Below, piece by piece: positions 1,549-16,194 of a DNA stretch of 20,528 nucleotides. Each line of letters starts with the position of its first letter. Position 1 is the first letter of the stretch. The notes below the pieces were generated by a model. The model saw only the letters and a program-made list of their open reading frames with translations, searched no databases and was not told the origin of the DNA. The translations under genes and the position numbers were made by a program. The DNA lies in IMG/VR virus record IMGVR_UViG_3300046836_000305, positions 1 through 20,528 of that record. One strand, 5' to 3'. The stretch comes from a virus.

Positions 1549-1832
1549 CGCTTGATCGTTTCGAGGATCGCCACCAACAAGCCAAGTCCCAGGCCGAGCG
1601 CATTGCGCCAATCGAACGCCGTGCCGACCCAGCGCGGTGCAATGACGAAATGAACTAAGAGCCAGCACATGAGCGGCACGACAATGAAGCGGCCGATCGG
1701 ATCGAAGCGGATCAGTCGCACCGTGTAACTCAGCGTGTACTCGCTGTGCCCCGAACCGAGCGCTAGGCACTCAACCGCGACGATCGCAAAAAAGAGAAGC
1801 GCCCAGAGGAAGGGCCAGTGGATGGTGGTCAT
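1545..1832 (-). CDS. Small multi-pass membrane protein, second holin candidate
   Basis: A 95-residue protein from the ATG at 1832, overlapping the endolysin stop as ATGA, with a purine-rich AGAGGTGG about 8 bases upstream. Hydrophobic segments are visible at residues 6-25 (WPFLWALLFFAIVAVECLAL), 48-65 and 78-92, giving two or three membrane spans separated by a short loop containing GSGHSEYTLS. The C-terminus ends in KR. Size, topology and position directly after the endolysin are compatible with a holin or a lysis accessory membrane protein. I do not recognise the family, and another membrane protein immediately before the endolysin competes for the holin role. Confidence 0.75.
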   Translation of the reverse strand: MTTIHWPFLWALLFFAIVAVECLALGSGHSEYTLSYTVRLIRFDPIGRFIVVPLMCWLLVHFVIAPRWVGTAFDWRNALGLGLGLLVAILETIKR

Positions 1833-2326
1833 ACCGCGCCCACCTCTCGCCAAACGGCCACCATACCCCCGGACGCAAGCAGTTCTGCCGCGTGCAGCGA
1901 CGGTGCCTGCCGCATCGGCTCGCCCCACTGGACATGCGGCCGATCTTGGAACCGCGGCCAATCTCCGCCCCAGGCGAGCGCATTGGCGCGCGCGAACTTA
2001 CCCAGCGCCTTCCAGAAATCCGCTGGCGCGTCCCACTGTCTCGATTTCGAGATGACGTCGACCGCGAGCCCGTAGCCGTGCCAGGTCGTCGTGTTCGTCT
2101 CGGCCTGCGTCACGACGCCGCGCCCGTCATCCCATTCGCGGCCGAAGCCGAAGAGCCACGCCTGCCGCTCTGAGGTACGGCAAGACTCGGAGACGATCGG
2201 ATCGTAGCCGGCTTCGGTGAATTGGCGGATCATCGCCGCGAGAGCATCGGAAAACCGCGGCGCGAGGCAGCTCAGCGAAGTGTTCACCGCCGGCTCGGCA
2301 GGCGGATCGGCGAGTCCGTGACTCAT
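1829..2326 (-). CDS. Endolysin, M15-family zinc peptidase (L-Ala-D-Glu / D-Ala-D-Ala type)
   Basis: A 165-residue peptidase predicted to cut peptide stems of peptidoglycan during lysis. The start is the ATG at 2326, which overlaps the upstream stop as ATGA; the frame extending to 2743 is only a shadow of the previous gene. Residues 45-54 contain VSESCRTSERQ, the S-x-x-R-[ST] element of this family. Residues 81-90 read TWHGYGLAVD, the H-x-x-G-x-A-x-D zinc motif with His83 and Asp90 as ligands and Thr in place of the usual Ser. WGGDW at 119-123 and PHVQW at 130-134 (His131, third ligand) complete the VanY/T5-Lys-like signature. There is no signal peptide, so export should need the neighbouring holin. 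The roughly 25-residue tail is short, with no recognised wall-binding domain. Confidence 0.93.
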   Translation of the reverse strand: MSHGLADPPAEPAVNTSLSCLAPRFSDALAAMIRQFTEAGYDPIVSESCRTSERQAWLFGFGREWDDGRGVVTQAETNTTTWHGYGLAVDVISKSRQWDAPADFWKALGKFARANALAWGGDWPRFQDRPHVQWGEPMRQAPSLHAAELLASGGMVAVWREVGAV

Positions 2327-2760
2327 TGGCCCGCCTTCGTGTCGACCGTCACCGTCGTCTGCGCCGCGGCGTGTTCTTTTGTCGGCTTCACGTCGTCGAT
2401 CGTCTCGCTCGAGCCGTCCGGCTTCTTTCGGAGCAGCAGGCCGAGCACACCCGTTCCGAGTAGCGTCGTCAACGCGCCCGCAAGGACGGTCGCCATCCCG
2501 ACGCTCGCATCTTTGGTGAACGCGAACCGGATGATGGCGCAGACAATCGCGAGCGCGGCGAGCATCGCCAGCCCCGCACACGCCCGCGCCATCGAGGCGT
2601 GATCCGTGTAGTTCGGATCGTCGACGAACGAGCGGACGTACGCCACAATCCGGCTGTAGTGCCGGTAGACGTAGACGAGCGCGAGGATCAGCGCCAGCTC
2701 GCCAACTGCTAACAACGTGAGCCAGAGCGCGGCAAGCATCCACGAGGCAGCGGCGCTCAT
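2323..2760 (-). CDS. Three-helix membrane protein, putative holin
   Basis: A 145-residue protein from the ATG at 2760, which shares one base with the upstream stop (TGATG). Three hydrophobic segments are evident: residues 4-32 (long, with ALILALVYVY), 58-81 (CAGLAMLAALAIVCAIIRF) and 88-110 (MATVLAGALTTLLGTGVLGLL). They are followed by RKK and a polar, charged C-terminal tail. Three spans with a hydrophilic cytoplasmic tail match the class I holin plan, and the gene directly precedes and overlaps the endolysin. No family-specific motif was recognised, so the assignment rests on topology and position. The other small membrane protein after the endolysin could instead be the holin, or the two could act together. 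Confidence 0.7.
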   Translation of the reverse strand: MSAAASWMLAALWLTLLAVGELALILALVYVYRHYSRIVAYVRSFVDDPNYTDHASMARACAGLAMLAALAIVCAIIRFAFTKDASVGMATVLAGALTTLLGTGVLGLLLRKKPDGSSETIDDVKPTKEHAAAQTTVTVDTKAGQ

Positions 2761-3266
2761 CAATCCGCGCGTTCCACTTCGAGCGCGATGAAATGCGCGT
2801 TCGCGTCGTCGACTTCGGTCTGGCTCATGCCCGGGATCACGCGCGCGACTTTCACGACGAGCCGCAACACGGTGAACATCTGCTCGCGCAAGATGCGCAG
2901 CCGCTCGCGGTTCTCCCGGTGATGCTCGTTGTTGTCCGTGCGGATCGCGTTCAGGGCGACGTTCGTCTCGTTGACGCGGCGCTGCTCGCCCACGGCCGCG
3001 TTATCCTTCCCGTCGCGAATGAGCACCTTGAGTTCGGCGAACAAGGCGTCGATGCGCTTCTCGAAGGCGATGGCGTCCGCGGCGATCTTCTCTTCGTGCG
3101 CCTCGCGCTTCTCTTTCTCGCCAGCGATCAGCGTCTCGAGCTTCAGAAAGCGCGCCCGGTTCGTCATGAGTGCCGAGACGAAGCCGAGGAGACCGGCGCC
3201 CGAGATCTCGAGCAGGCGCAGCCACCAGTCTTCGGCCGGCGGGCTCTGAATCTGCCATGCAGCCAT
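2760..3266 (-). CDS. N-terminally anchored coiled-coil protein of the lysis cassette
   Basis: A 168-residue protein. I chose the ATG at 3266, five bases after the stop of the tail-hub gene; the longer reading to 3317 would overlap that gene substantially. Residues 14-35 (WWLRLLEISGAGLLGFVSALM) form one membrane anchor. Residues 38-130 are highly charged and helical (GEKEKREAHEEKIAADAIAF and onward), typical of a coiled coil, and a second, less charged amphipathic helix follows at 130-145. An N-terminal anchor plus a long coiled coil next to holin and endolysin genes recalls inner-membrane spanins. No outer-membrane lipoprotein partner with a lipobox is visible, so this is tentative. Confidence 0.72.
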   Translation of the reverse strand: MAAWQIQSPPAEDWWLRLLEISGAGLLGFVSALMTNRARFLKLETLIAGEKEKREAHEEKIAADAIAFEKRIDALFAELKVLIRDGKDNAAVGEQRRVNETNVALNAIRTDNNEHHRENRERLRILREQMFTVLRLVVKVARVIPGMSQTEVDDANAHFIALEVERAD

Positions 3267-3270
3267 TGGG

Positions 3271-4980
3271 TTATGGTCCCCGGCCGTAGGAGGCGGAACT
3301 GACACGCGACGTTGCAACGATAGTCGACCCGACTTTTGCGATCAGGTAGAATGAGATACTGAGCGCGACCTGCGGCGCATCCGGCGGCGTGTGGAACGGC
3401 TCGATGTCCGTCCCGACGTCGTAGTCGTAGGTGAAGGTCAGTGCAGCGATCGTGTCGACGTACACGAAACCCGTATCGCCGAGCTGCACGTAGAGGTCGA
3501 ACGTCGCCGACGCGTCGCCGCCCCAGCCCCAGTTGAAGGCGACGTGATCCGTCGTGTAGTTCGGCACTTGTTCAAAGAGCGCGAATCCGCCAGGAACCGG
3601 ATTGTCTCCACTCGGTTCCGTCTCCCCGCCGACGGGCTTGCGAGCAAGCCAGCGGTAGTACGACCCCGCTGGCTTGCCACGGACGGTGAACTGCGACCGA
3701 CTCTTGCCCTGCGCGCCCCCATCGAGTTGATGGTGATACGCGACGATGGAAAGTTTTTGCTCTTCGTCTGAATGGACGAGATTCGCGGGGAAGGAGATCA
3801 GGTCATGAAGATCGGCGGGCCAAAAGAAGGGCATCTCGACAATCGCATCGGCGAACGGGTCCGCGATGTCACCGACGATCAGATTCGCGAGAGCCTGAGC
3901 AGATACCGAGTCCTGAATCGGGCCGCCGCTGTCCTCCTGGTCGATCATTGAACGGCGCCCGTAGCGGCGCACCGACTCGAGGTCGACCGCATTGACCGAG
4001 GCGCGTGAACTTCCGGGCGGGTCACCCGACGGGCCATAGTAGACCGTCACGTCATTGCGAATCGGCGTCCGGTCGCTCCGATACTGCGAAAAGTTGTAGT
4101 AGCTCGAGGGGGGAAAGGTCCAATCGGCGACGGTCTTGTTGCGGCCGGGGTCGCGGAGTGTGAACGAGAACGCCTGTAGCGAGTCGTCCCACCGCATCCG
4201 AACATCCCATCCAATCGTACCGACGACCCGAACAATCGGGCCGAGTCCCGACTCGATGTCATATTTGAATGGCGTGACTACAACGTCGGGATCGGGGAAG
4301 GCCGGGACAGAGAAGTGCAGCTTGGTATCGGGCGCGAGGAGGAAGATCAACTCGATCACCGCGCCGACAAGATCGAATACCGGGAACCCGCCGATGACAT
4401 TGGGCTTCGTGAACCACGTATCCGCGAGCTCGGCGGCCAGATCGCGACAGTCGAGTTCCACGATCGCGTTGGCCCAGTCGATCATGTCGATGTAGCCGTC
4501 AAAGATCGTGTGATAATCCGAGTCGGCCGGCGTGATGCCGATGTCAACCGTCGCCACGTCGATCGTGATCCGTCGGCCGGCGTCGATACTCGGACCCTTC
4601 CCGAGCGTGGCGTCCGCTTCAACGAAGGCGATCTGGTTGTAGGCGCTGTTGGTGCGAAAGGGGGCGAGTGACCGGCCACCGACTTCGCGCCAGAGCTTCA
4701 CGGTTGCCGTCGAGACGTTCTGGTCGATCGTGCCCGAGTATTCGATCGAGTGAATCCAGTTGATCGCGTCGCGGTTGGAGTAGTCCCAGATGACGCCGGA
4801 CGGGTCCTGGATGCGGACACGCGCCGCGACGTTGTAGCCAGCGCTCGTGAGAAGGCGGGCGAGATCTGTGTCGGTGATGAACCGGGCCGAGCCTGGCGTC
4901 CCAGAGTGAGACCCACCGCCGCCACCGAGGCCGCCCTCGTCAATCGTGAGGACGTTCAGAAGTGAAGCGTTAAGAAGCAC
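3271..4980 (-). CDS. Large tail-tip / hub-like structural protein
   Basis: A 569-residue protein starting with GTG at 4980 (LLNASLLNVLTID follows). No ATG is available before the conserved-looking region and the ribosome-binding site is poor, perhaps because the DNA upstream was altered (see the PAP2 fragment). A glycine-rich linker (GGLGGGGG, residues 16-23) precedes a region of about 170 residues rich in beta strands (VRIQDPSGVIWDYSN, then IFDGYIDMIDW and LDCRDLAAEL). That pattern recalls baseplate/tail-hub proteins. The last hundred residues, from about 470, look like an Fn3/Ig-type beta sandwich (HVAFNWGWGGDASATFDLYV). It is the last tail gene before the lysis cassette, as expected for a tail-tip component. 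The exact role is inferred from size and position. Confidence 0.65.
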   Translation of the reverse strand: MLLNASLLNVLTIDEGGLGGGGGSHSGTPGSARFITDTDLARLLTSAGYNVAARVRIQDPSGVIWDYSNRDAINWIHSIEYSGTIDQNVSTATVKLWREVGGRSLAPFRTNSAYNQIAFVEADATLGKGPSIDAGRRITIDVATVDIGITPADSDYHTIFDGYIDMIDWANAIVELDCRDLAAELADTWFTKPNVIGGFPVFDLVGAVIELIFLLAPDTKLHFSVPAFPDPDVVVTPFKYDIESGLGPIVRVVGTIGWDVRMRWDDSLQAFSFTLRDPGRNKTVADWTFPPSSYYNFSQYRSDRTPIRNDVTVYYGPSGDPPGSSRASVNAVDLESVRRYGRRSMIDQEDSGGPIQDSVSAQALANLIVGDIADPFADAIVEMPFFWPADLHDLISFPANLVHSDEEQKLSIVAYHHQLDGGAQGKSRSQFTVRGKPAGSYYRWLARKPVGGETEPSGDNPVPGGFALFEQVPNYTTDHVAFNWGWGGDASATFDLYVQLGDTGFVYVDTIAALTFTYDYDVGTDIEPFHTPPDAPQVALSISFYLIAKVGSTIVATSRVSSASYGRGP

Positions 4981-5012
4981 GGGCTAGCGGATTAGGAGGG
5001 GCGGGGGAGGTC

Positions 5013-5186
5013 GTGCTGCTCACCGCGCTCGCCACGATCGGGTTCGGCGAACATTACGTGACTGATCTGATATTCGCGATACCGCTTGCCGCCGCCGCAT
5101 GGCATTTCGCCGGTCGGCGTTGGCGCCCCGCCGCGTTCTGCACCTTGGGCCTCTTCGGCGCCTTGCTGGCGATTCGGTTCCATTAG
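5013..5186 (+). pseudogene. 5'-truncated PAP2-superfamily phosphatase (C-terminal fragment), antisense to the tail operon
   Basis: On the plus strand 57 codons followed by TAG encode a hydrophobic segment beginning VLLTALATIGFGEHYVTDLI. This resembles the third conserved motif and last helices of PAP2 (inositolphosphotransferase-like) membrane phosphatases, where G-x-H-Y-x-x-D supplies the catalytic His (here residue 14) and Asp (residue 18). A second hydrophobic helix (AAFCTLGLFGALLAI) follows. The N-terminal helices and first two PAP2 motifs are absent: the frame is closed by a TAA at 4971. It is the only plus-strand coding signal in the window and fills most of the one long stretch without a convincing minus-strand gene. 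AGGAGG at 4994-4999 and GGGGAGG just before the GTG could allow translation of a mini-protein. A decayed cellular gene piece is the likeliest reading. Confidence 0.6.
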
Positions 5187-5356
5187 CCCGTCGCCGGAGC
5201 TCCGACCGTGGGACTCCCGCCGCCGGCGCCAGAGCCGGTCGGCGGTACGACGGGCCGATACGGGAGATTGAAGTCTGGGAGTTGTCCGTCGAGCGTTCGG
5301 AAGGTTGGCACAACTGCCGCGCCTGGCGTTGGCGTTGTTACGGGTGAGGTGGCCAT
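5183..5356 (-). CDS. Short proline/glycine-rich tail-region protein, unknown
   Basis: A 57-residue frame from the ATG at 5356 to a TAA at 5185-5183. A good ribosome-binding site (CGGAGT) lies about 7 bases upstream, starting 4 bases after the stop of the preceding gene, which supports real translation. The protein begins MATSPVTTPTPGAAVVPTFR, continues with LDGQLPDFNLPYRPVVPP and ends in a glycine-rich tail; it is rich in Pro, Thr and Gly with no hydrophobic core. Its stop codon falls exactly where the antisense PAP2 fragment ends (CATTAG on the plus strand), so its C-terminus may have been cut or altered by that insertion. Function unknown; position suggests a minor tail component. Confidence 0.6.
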   Translation of the reverse strand: MATSPVTTPTPGAAVVPTFRTLDGQLPDFNLPYRPVVPPTGSGAGGGSPTVGAPATG

Positions 5357-5368
5357 TGATCTACTCCG

Positions 5369-6205
5369 TTATTCGTAGAGGATACATGTCCGCAGGCTGC
5401 TGCTGACCGCCGACAGCTGAGCCGTGGCGAGAAACGTCCGTGTCGAGCCATAGAGCGTCGCCGTCACTGTGATGCCAGCCGTCGGGAAATCCGTCGTCCC
5501 GCCAATCATCATCGCTGGCGTTGGATTGTTGCCTCCCGCCTCGTTCCATGTGAACGGGTGGAAGGTCATGGTGTGCGAGCCGATCACGTTCGAGGCGAGC
5601 GTACTTTGGTTGCAGGGGAACGTGGCAATAGTGCCCGGCACCGTACCTGAGACGGGAATGTTTTGCGTGAGGTCGCTGTTCGCGTTGTTGTGCAAATAAT
5701 CGACGCCGCTGGACATTGCGCCCGTCACATCAACGCCGCCATGGATGACGAAGTACCACATCGCTCCGCCTGACGATGTCCCGACTCCTCCAACCATGAA
5801 CGACAATCGACCCGTGGCCGAGGAGATCGCGTAGAACTTGTTGGTCGTTAATTCATTCGAGGTGAACGCCAATGTCTGCAGCGTCGAGGTCTGCCCGGTG
5901 AGTGTGCCCGATCCGTTCACGCCGCTCCCCAACTGCACCTTGAGCGAGGGGCCGTTGGTCGTATAGCCGTAGTCGATACGCATGTACCACGTCTCACCGC
6001 TCACGGTCGTCGAATACACGCGAAAGACGGGATACGTCCCGGCAGATCCCGGCGTGCCGGTGTTCGGGTCACCGTCGCCGGTCTGCGCCGTGTACGTCCA
6101 TCCGTGCGCCGTGATGAACGCATCGAAGACGCCGCCCCATAGCGCTTGCCAGACGGCGGCGGTCCCCATGGAGAAGTTTTGCGTGCTAGAAGTCTGGGTA
6201 GCCAT
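5369..6205 (-). CDS. Probable minor tail / virion surface protein
   Basis: A 278-residue protein from the ATG at 6205, with a modest purine-rich stretch (AGGGAC) upstream. Residues 14-35 (GTAAVWQALWGGVFDAFITA) look like an amphipathic helix. The rest is rich in Gly, Ser, Thr and aromatic residues with alternating polarity (TWYMRIDYGYTTNGP, MWYFVIHGGVDVTGA), typical of a beta-structured virion protein. There is no signal peptide or enzymatic motif. It lies between the tail fibre genes and the hub-like gene, so a tip- or fibre-associated structural role is likely. I cannot name the family with certainty. Confidence 0.65.
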   Translation of the reverse strand: MATQTSSTQNFSMGTAAVWQALWGGVFDAFITAHGWTYTAQTGDGDPNTGTPGSAGTYPVFRVYSTTVSGETWYMRIDYGYTTNGPSLKVQLGSGVNGSGTLTGQTSTLQTLAFTSNELTTNKFYAISSATGRLSFMVGGVGTSSGGAMWYFVIHGGVDVTGAMSSGVDYLHNNANSDLTQNIPVSGTVPGTIATFPCNQSTLASNVIGSHTMTFHPFTWNEAGGNNPTPAMMIGGTTDFPTAGITVTATLYGSTRTFLATAQLSAVSSSLRTCILYE

Positions 6206-6219
6206 TATTCAAGTCCCTG

Positions 6220-6648
6220 TTAGACGTAGAGCCACAGTGTTGCTTCTTTGATGACGCCATCAACTGTCTGCAGGCCGACCTGAAAGACGTCATCGGCCGA
6301 GAATGAGGGCGACCAACCGGAGAGCGTCGTATCCTGCATTTCGGAGGCGGCCGACAGCACGACGTTATGTCCGCCCGTGACGTCCGCGAGCGAACCTGGG
6401 AAGGCGGCGCGCGCGCATTTCTTGAGCGTGAATGACACACTGCCGACGGTGCCGTCTCCCGAGACGACAACAACCTTGCTGATCGTTCCACCAGCGGGAC
6501 GCGGCGCGGTCGTAACGAGGAGATCGCCGGTGAGCGTGAGCGGGAGACCTGTACCGCTGAAATGCGCGCCGAAAGGACTACTCGAGACCGGCCCACCTGA
6601 TCCGACCGGCGACGCGGGCCCGCCAGAGACCATCATTGTACGACGCAC
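6220..6648 (-). CDS. Small beta-rich tail-region protein, unknown
   Basis: A frame of 142 residues if started at the GTG at 6648, or 138/137 from tandem ATG codons at 6636/6633. No start has a clear ribosome-binding site, and the gene begins within a few bases of the stop of the tail fibre gene, so coupling is possible. The sequence has a Gly/Ser/Pro-rich N-terminal stretch (residues 9-35) followed by beta-like segments (ISKVVVVSGDGTVGSVSFTL, NVVLSAASEM, FQVGLQTVDGVIKEATLWLYV). No enzyme motif, membrane span or known domain is recognised. Its place directly after a fibre suggests a fibre accessory or small virion protein. Confidence 0.6.
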   Translation of the reverse strand: MRRTMMVSGGPASPVGSGGPVSSSPFGAHFSGTGLPLTLTGDLLVTTAPRPAGGTISKVVVVSGDGTVGSVSFTLKKCARAAFPGSLADVTGGHNVVLSAASEMQDTTLSGWSPSFSADDVFQVGLQTVDGVIKEATLWLYV

Positions 6649-12822: not shown

Positions 12823-13263
12823 CTACGGGAGAGTGATCGTGCCGAACGTGAACGTGCCCGTCGTTTTCCCGTCGATCGAGATATTCGTTTTGTCGCGCAC
12901 CTTGGTATCGATCGCGATCTTCGTCAGGTTGACGGCGCCCTTCCAGCCTTTCTTCGTGACTGCGGAGCTGTCGAAGATCACGGCGACGTATCCACTCGGG
13001 GACGTCGCTTCGACCTCTGCCTCGATCATGGCGTCTTGGCCATTGGTGTCACCCACCCGCCGTCCGCCGCTCATCGTGAACGGCAACGAGCGAATGCCGG
13101 TGATTGACTGCTCGTACGCGACGCCAAACTCGTCGTCGGCAATCTCGGGCGACTCGGGCCCGCCGCTTATTGTGTCGATGCCGGCGACGAGGTGATACGA
13201 ACTCGCGCCGTTCGTGGCGGACCAATAGACCTGACACTTCCGGCCCGCGGTTGAGGAGGACAT
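12823..13263 (-). CDS. Tail-tube-type protein, paralogue B of a tandem pair
   Basis: A 146-residue protein from the ATG at 13263 with a strong AAGGAGA ribosome-binding site that overlaps the stop of the upstream gene. It is a clear duplicate of its neighbour: shared blocks include GGPESPEI, DDEFGV, YEQSITGI, NGQDA/TGQDA and a nearly identical end (RDKTNISIDGKTTG...FTFG.ITLP), about two thirds identical by eye. It is rich in beta strands and Gly/Ser/Thr with no enzyme motif. The position between the tail terminator and the chaperones is that of tail tube genes, so it is a tail tube subunit or related virion protein. The strong ribosome-binding site suggests abundant synthesis. Confidence 0.7.
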   Translation of the reverse strand: MSSSTAGRKCQVYWSATNGASSYHLVAGIDTISGGPESPEIADDEFGVAYEQSITGIRSLPFTMSGGRRVGDTNGQDAMIEAEVEATSPSGYVAVIFDSSAVTKKGWKGAVNLTKIAIDTKVRDKTNISIDGKTTGTFTFGTITLP

Positions 13264-13272
13264 GCTGTCTCC

Positions 13273-13716
13273 TTACGTGACCGGCAGCGTGATCGCGCCG
13301 AAGGTGAAGGCGCCCGTCGTCTTGCCGTCGATCGATATGTTCGTTTTGTCGCGGGTCTTGGTGTCGAACGAGACCTTCGTGATGTTCACCGCGCCCAGCC
13401 AGCCGTTGCCGGGTGACGTGCCGTCGAACAACACCGCGATGTATCCGTTCGGCGATGTGCCGGCGAGTTGCGCCGCGACGATGGCGTCCTGGCCCGTCGA
13501 ATCGCTCCCGATGCGAGCGCCGCCGGACAACGAGAAGGGCAGGCCGATGATGCCCGTAATGGACTGTTCGTATTCGACGCCGAACTCGTCATCGTTGATT
13601 TCCGGCGACTCCGGTCCACCGGTCACCGTATCGATACCGGCAATCAGGTTGTATGAGTCGTCGGTATTGTCGGCGGACCAGTAGACTTTCGCCTTTCTGC
13701 CAGCGGTCGATGACAT
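13273..13716 (-). CDS. Tail-tube-type protein, paralogue A of a tandem pair
   Basis: A 147-residue protein from the ATG at 13716 (MSSTAGRKAKVYWSADN). GAGAA about 7 bases upstream is a weak ribosome-binding site, and a stable hairpin lies about 28 bases upstream. It shares most of its length with the next gene, including GGPESPEINDDEFGVEYEQS and the end RDKTNISIDGKTTGAFTFG, with small indels and different loops (for example GTSPGN against SSAVTKK). Such divergence with a conserved core suggests duplication followed by specialisation. It is the first gene of the tail module after the tail terminator protein, where a tail tube gene is expected. It could also be a tube-related decoration. Confidence 0.7.
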   Translation of the reverse strand: MSSTAGRKAKVYWSADNTDDSYNLIAGIDTVTGGPESPEINDDEFGVEYEQSITGIIGLPFSLSGGARIGSDSTGQDAIVAAQLAGTSPNGYIAVLFDGTSPGNGWLGAVNITKVSFDTKTRDKTNISIDGKTTGAFTFGAITLPVT

Positions 13717-15078: not shown

Positions 15079-16194
15079 TCAGGCCGTCCGCTTCCACATA
15101 TAGACGGCGATGTACGGCTGGACGACGCTCGACGCGCTGCCGGTAAAGGCCGGGGCAGAGTTGGTGCCCGTCGGCGTAACCGTATGCGTGTGACCTGAGA
15201 GCGCCGAGCCCGTGAACGTCGGCGCTGAGATCGTGCCCGCTGGCGTGAGCGTGTGCGTGTGCGTGCTCAACGCCGAACCGGTGAACGTCGGCGTCGACAC
15301 CGTGCCGGTTGCCGTCGTGACCGGCGTGACGCCGCTCGAGGTGTTGCCGGTCAGCAGTTTGGCGGGCGAAGTCGTCGATGCCGCAGCGACCGCGTTGCCG
15401 GTGAACGTCGGCTGCGAAATCGTGCCCGCTGGCGTCCCACCACTCACCGCGCTCGTCGTGCCTTGCGATCCCGTGAAGGTTGGCGCCGAGACTGTACCGG
15501 CGGGCGTCCCGCCACTCACCGATGACGTCGTGTTGCTGTTGCCGGTGAACGTCGGAGCAGCCACGGAACCCGTCGCGGCAACCGTCTTGGCGCCGCCCGT
15601 CTTTTCACTGGTGTCGAAGTCGGCGTCTCCTCCGTCCACGCCAACGAGCACACGACCGGCGCCGAAGGCTGACCATGTGCCGCGGCCGAGCAGCGTCGCC
15701 GGGTTCGTGCTCAGCGTGGAAATGTAGACTGCGCCAACCGGATAGAGCGTGTCGATCACTGTGGCGATCGTCGGGGCGTCGGCGCCCGCGGGACCAGTAT
15801 CGCCCGTGTCTCCCTTCACGCCCTGAGTGCCCTGAATGCCCTGCGGACCAGTAGCGCCGTCAGCACCGGCGGCTCCCGTATCCCCGGTGTCACCCTTCGC
15901 ACCCTGAACTCCTTGCGGACCCGCGGCGCCATCAGCTCCGGCAGGACCAGTGTCGCCCGTGTCGCCCTTATCTCCCTTCGGACCTGCCGGACCCGAACCG
16001 CCTCCTTGACCATCGACTGAGACGTATGGCAAATCGTTCCACGCAGAAACGCCATCGCCTACCTTCATCTGACAACTATCGACTTCGGCGCCGACTTCTC
16101 CCCGAAGCAAAATCGGATTAGCCGCACTCCATGCCGCGGCCGATCCGCGGCTCATTTGGAACCGTTTTCGGCGAACTAGATCGTCGAGCGGCAT
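15079..16194 (-). CDS. Collagen-like fibre protein (head or tail fibre)
   Basis: A 371-residue protein from the ATG at 16194 with GGGAAG about 6-10 bases upstream. Residues 7-58 ([44 protein letters not shown]) resemble an Mtd-N-like attachment domain. Residues 68-139 are 24 uninterrupted G-X-Y collagen triplets. Residues 147-200 ([20 protein letters not shown], then [20 protein letters not shown]) match the phage tail-collagen / gp10 C-terminal module. Residues 213-352 contain about six APTFTG-type repeats, with two HTHT motifs (312-315, 335-338) that could bind metal as in trimeric fibres. It ends [13 protein letters not shown], the usual terminus. Placed between connector genes, it may form capsid fibres instead of tail fibres. 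Confidence 0.87.
15139..15558 (-). repeat. APTFTG repeats in the fibre C-terminal half
   Basis: About six imperfect protein repeats each end in (A/Q/T)PTFTG or APAFTG, with spacers such as GGTPAGT and HTHT(L/V)TP. The underlying DNA repeats (gtgaacgtcgg and close variants on the plus strand) recur, so slippage or recombination could change copy number. Confidence 0.8.
15778..15993 (-). repeat. Collagen triplet repeat (24 G-X-Y units)
   Basis: 24 consecutive glycine triplets with a higher-order repeat around GDTGDTG(P/A)AGADGA, seen three times in full or in part. Triple-helical trimerisation is expected. The repeated DNA makes length variation likely. Confidence 0.9.

Follow-up and report, generated by a model that had tools for sequence, protein, structure and literature searches.

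A short plus-strand segment in the tail gene region of a tailed soil phage is, with reasonable though not high confidence, the 3′ remnant of an accessory, moron-type gene of the PAP2_3/Aur1-like family, the intact form of which would code for an integral-membrane lipid phosphatase or head-group transferase. The window, i.e., the whole stretch of DNA analyzed, is an IMG/VR virus record of 20,528 bases. Its minus strand carries recognizable genes for a prohead protease, an HK97-type capsid protein, tail proteins, a tape measure protein, fibres and an M15 endolysin, and the window is a fragment of a tailed-phage genome. The features that bear on the segment are the following:

1829–2326, minus strand: M15 peptidase endolysin (PF13539, E = 2.9e-8), homologous to that of contig G003 (37% identity by alignment; see below)
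2760–3317, minus strand: 185-aa protein with one hydrophobic stretch, adjoining putative lysis genes
3271–4980, minus strand: 569-aa protein, no Pfam or PHROG match
4980–4998, no strand: putative truncation junction, where PAP2 homology stops, bordering the 5′ edge of the 569-aa gene
4992–5183, minus strand: 63-aa ORF whose codons lie exactly antisense to those of the PAP2 frame, with a TAATG overlap with the upstream gene
4998–5186, plus strand: 3′-terminal remnant of a PAP2_3 (Aur1-like) membrane enzyme gene, from the PF14378 match and profiles
5040–5066, plus strand: catalytic motif 3, GFGEHYVTD (His codon 5052–5054, Asp codon 5064–5066)
5183–5356, minus strand: small Pro/Gly/Thr-rich ORF of 57 aa that closes the tail-fibre region; it and the PAP2 remnant are convergent, and their stops overlap

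Elsewhere in the window, the adjacent minus-strand genes at 12823–13263 and 13273–13716 form a tandem duplication (70.6% DNA identity over 439 bases), and a tail-type protein with collagen-like Gly-X-Y repeats is encoded at 15079–16194, between the head genes and the tail genes; its gene has internal repeats near 15140–15435.

The first-pass annotation had described a plus-strand ORF with a GTG start at 5013–5186, and an ORF of 57 codons is indeed present there, with its TAG stop at 5184–5186. The predicted translation matches the Pfam family PAP2_3 (PF14378; E = 6.3e-5) at profile positions 159–188 of 190, such that the last 30 positions of the family align with the first 30 residues of the ORF. 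The score of 23.3 bits falls short of the Pfam gathering cut-off (27 bits), as a fragment would be expected to do; when all six frames of the record were searched, the E value was 4.8e-6. A profile of about 75 cellular PAP2 genes, free of phage copies, gave this frame 24.5 bits, as against 6.0 for the runner-up among the frames of the window; when the phage copy of G003 was added to the profile, the score rose to 27.1 bits, and the best score among about 134,000 ORFs of 300 randomized windows was 11.3 bits. Judged by these scores, the homology of the 5013–5186 segment to PAP2_3 is far above chance. The earlier assignment to PAP2 stands, as do the truncation at the 5′ end and the antisense position.

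Enzymes of the PAP2 superfamily have a catalytic site made up of two His residues and an Asp residue, and they act on phosphorylated lipids or lipid head groups. The segment retains the His and the Asp of motif 3 (GEHYVxD), a motif in which G-H-Y-V-x-D is invariant in a 40-row alignment. When a full-length protein was compared with the window by tblastn, the C-terminal part alone was found, with neither motif 2 (PSLH) nor the APPW region; no second PAP2 piece is present anywhere in the window, and motifs 1 and 2 are both missing. In terms of PAP2 homology, the segment is the window's sole plus-strand coding signal, as described earlier. As motif 3 is all that is left, the predicted product cannot be an enzyme.

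The two ends of the fragment differ in character. The homology begins slightly upstream of the GTG codon, at about position 4998 (GAGEVV...), in a frame that is open from 4974. Mapped on a model of an intact homologue, the fragment corresponds to the last part of a membrane helix, to motif 3 and to the helix after it, and it has in addition a hydrophobic C-terminal stretch of its own; thus, of the two last helices and third motif assigned to it earlier, the motif and the helix that follows it stand, but the first helix is represented by its end only. The C-terminal tail after the motif-3 His is 43 residues long, against a family median of 42, and its length suggests that the 3′ end of the fragment is probably the native one. 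The fragment is a 5′-truncated gene with a complete 3′ end and not an arbitrary piece. Its TAG (5184–5186) overlaps the TAA (5185–5183) of the 57-aa minus-strand gene, for which no Pfam or PHROG match was found, so that the ORF ends, as had been reported, at the stop of its neighbour.

On the other side, the 569-aa gene starts at GTG 4980, immediately after an in-frame stop, and no recognizable ribosome-binding site precedes this codon; its 5′ end may therefore have been altered by the junction, and the absence of a ribosome-binding site fits an illegitimate join without proving it. No relatives of the 569-aa protein were found in viral contigs, in phage records or in contigs related to the window, and its proposed role as the tail hub was not confirmed. 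A consensus scan of 4800–5450 revealed no promoter or terminator, but the 5′ end of the fragment is lost and the consensus may not be that of the host. By its orientation, on the plus strand within a minus-strand operon, the fragment is placed as morons often are.

Complete PAP2_3 genes were found in two other phages. Contig G003 (IMGVR_UViG_3300031825_000048; 38 kb), with a capsid protein 51% identical to that of the window, has a complete gene of 291 aa at 5759–6634, on the strand opposite the structural genes and flanked by tail genes and by the M15 endolysin homologous to the window's; its product scores 79.3 bits with PAP2_3 and has the motifs TAPPW, PSLH and GEHYVAD. No homologue of the 569-aa protein adjoins PAP2 in G003, so the place of the gene there is similar, not identical. 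Plus-strand small-protein ORFs of 81, 62 and 133 aa with hydrophobic stretches flank the G003 gene (L016:5236–7040), the 62-aa ORF showing a CxxC...CxxC zinc-ribbon pattern; gene and ORFs possibly form one accessory cassette, for which PADLOC returned no match. The second contig, G222 (IMGVR_UViG_3300037483_000275; 57 kb), comes from a phage unrelated to that of the window and encodes a terminase, a portal protein and a capsid protein; its complete PAP2_3 gene is also opposite the structural genes and is convergent with a gene for a 925-aa putative fibre. A subtilase gene (Peptidase_S8, with an I9 propeptide-like match) lies beside the fibre and PAP2 genes (L105:13686–15245).

Another 50 relatives, by capsid or by endolysin, yielded no PAP2_3, many of these records being fragmentary. 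Its presence in G003, with none detected in these relatives, marks it, at the level of gene content, as an accessory gene. A search of 50,697 phage records with the G003 protein gave no match, and the PAP2_3 proteins of G003 and G222 both lack a PHROG family. A search of the open-access literature brought up no report of a PAP2 moron in a tailed phage; one article mentions PAP2 in a contig of a giant virus from an Arctic lake (PMC9469726).

What the intact enzyme might do was approached through its fold. The G003 protein, which has no sequence match in the PDB, was modeled from a 40-row alignment (pLDDT 84.5). The best structural matches of the model were to inositol phosphorylceramide synthase and Aur1 (Z of 21.2 for 9vj4_A and 20.8 for 9ivc_A; rmsd 4.1–4.3 over 265–268 aligned residues), followed by LpxE (Z 16.7) and PgpB (Z 12.1), and the predicted fold of the intact phage protein is thus closest to Aur1/inositol phosphorylceramide synthase. 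A Foldseek comparison of the model with viral models gave nothing at 1e-3; the weak matches include giant-virus PAP2 proteins.

We infer the following order of events. An ancestor of this phage would have carried a whole PAP2_3 gene on the strand opposite the structural genes, beside fibre and lysis genes, as in G003 and G222. The intact enzyme, with its His-His-Asp site (PSLH ... GEHYVxD), would have acted on phosphorylated lipids of the host membrane and plausibly changed the surface of the cell, either during infection or in lysogeny. An illegitimate join within the gene, at about 4980–4998, would then have removed roughly four fifths of it, and the same join would have placed the 569-aa gene and the lysis module against the PAP2 stump, next to the tail-fibre module. 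What remains is probably a silent scar. Of the two origins considered in the first-pass annotation, capture of host DNA or the remnant of a moron, the second is the better supported, by the complete genes of two other phages and by the native-looking 3′ end; position and orientation also favour it over random capture from a host. Against it stand the grouping of the fragment with a Thermomicrobium protein (see below), the absence of any promoter or terminator match in 4800–5450 and the non-identical site in G003.

A direct capture, in which illegitimate recombination inserted a host PAP2 gene's 3′ end, and nothing more of it, between two tail genes of a phage that never had the whole gene, is a less likely origin, to which we give roughly one chance in four. 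Over shared columns the fragment is identical to the Thermomicrobium protein at 17/36 positions, to G003 at 15/37 and to G222 at 11/37; a 38-column tree, short and with its sample drawn with G003 as the query, groups it with Thermomicrobium at 0.93, that is, with a cellular PAP2 and not with the phage copies. In sequence, then, neither phage copy is closer to the fragment than cellular ones are, and so the PAP2 genes of the window and of the phages may be separate acquisitions at similar places, which is at least as likely as their common descent. The rarity of phage PAP2_3 genes also speaks for direct capture, but the native-like 3′ end, the stop codon of which overlaps that of the neighbouring phage gene, and the existence of whole phage copies at comparable places speak against it, as does the failure of genome scans to find a cellular source.

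In these scans, an exact pattern from the fragment found no relative in 84,980 species genomes, and a family-level pattern returned mainly PAP2 genes of Actinomycetota and Thermomicrobiales, none of them close. In 201 genomes from the phylum to which a Thermomicrobiales MAG belongs, nothing was found at 1e-4, a threshold that was too strict, as even the match of G003 would score worse in a whole genome; among 396 genomes of an Actinomycetota phylum sample nothing exceeded 19.3 bits. The expectation that bacterial genomes might name the host was thus not borne out. Gemmatimonadota were suspected as possible hosts from the style of the G003 proteins.

The minus strand of the segment invites another reading, namely that the 63-aa ORF at 4992–5183 is a tail-operon gene that arose by overprinting on a captured PAP2 fragment. 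The ORF does occupy the gap between two minus-strand genes, with the TAATG overlap at its start, but its codons are exactly those of the PAP2 frame read in antisense, and it has no ribosome-binding site and no homologue in Pfam. Synonymous codon usage fails to separate the two strands over 57–63 codons; the GC content by codon position of the minus frame, however, is abnormal (0.77/0.53/0.67, against about 0.6/0.5/0.78 in the genome), whereas that of the PAP2 frame looks normal. The 63-aa ORF is probably a shadow ORF, and we regard overprinting as improbable.

Slightly less probable still is that the segment works today as a plus-strand membrane peptide of 57 to 67 residues, e.g., as an inhibitor of the host's own PAP2 enzyme. 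The frame is open, encodes two hydrophobic stretches and has a GTG preceded by purine-rich sequence; the ribosome-binding-like sequences noticed earlier are present, but AGGAGG lies 13 nt and GGAGG 2 nt upstream of GTG 5013, both poorly spaced, no promoter match was found, and open frames of such length are common at 63% GC. An assembly chimera, with a bacterial fragment pasted into the contig, is very improbable. In its favour, no second contig covers the junction; contig G001 (the same phage, 100% identical) ends at window position 5559, short of the segment, and the contigs of the other close relatives end earlier. Against it, assembly would have had to go wrong twice in about 210 bases flanked on either side by phage genes, and one of the two false joins would have to coincide exactly with the stop-codon overlap.

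Broken accessory genes at module borders, truncated morons among them, are ordinary in phage genomes. The PAP2 scar itself is ordinary in this sense, and the rare intact Aur1-like genes carried by phages are the better lead: they suggest, in a form open to test, that phages use an enzyme of this kind to modify the lipid-linked surface of the host cell. The boundary between tail and lysis genes is also marked out as a site where accessory genes are gained and lost. More tentatively, Aur1-like lipid head-group transferases might be acquired time and again by some soil phages, on the strand opposite their late operon and beside fibre or lysis genes, to remodel the host membrane or surface, e.g., for superinfection exclusion, in which case the window would record a loss by module exchange; we hold this wider proposal to be rather doubtful.

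Compared with the PAP2_3 family, Aur1-like enzymes included, the segment is alike in GEHYVxD, in the helix that follows and in C-terminal length, and differs in the absence of motifs 1 and 2 and of most membrane helices. The PAP2_3 genes of G003 and G222 belong to the same family and have the same relative orientation at a comparable place, but they are complete and are not the closest sequence relatives of the segment. From phage morons and lysogenic-conversion genes the remnant differs in being truncated, with no promoter or terminator detected and no accessory function any longer. Such genes are accessory, often reversed and found at module borders, and PAP2 likewise occurs sporadically, on the strand opposite the late operon, where tail and lysis genes meet; a comparable arrangement is seen in Microcystis phage Mwe-Yong1, a capsid relative, in which a reversed, opposite-strand M48 peptidase gene lies directly after the tail spike, at the end of the tail operon (L191:35838–37013).
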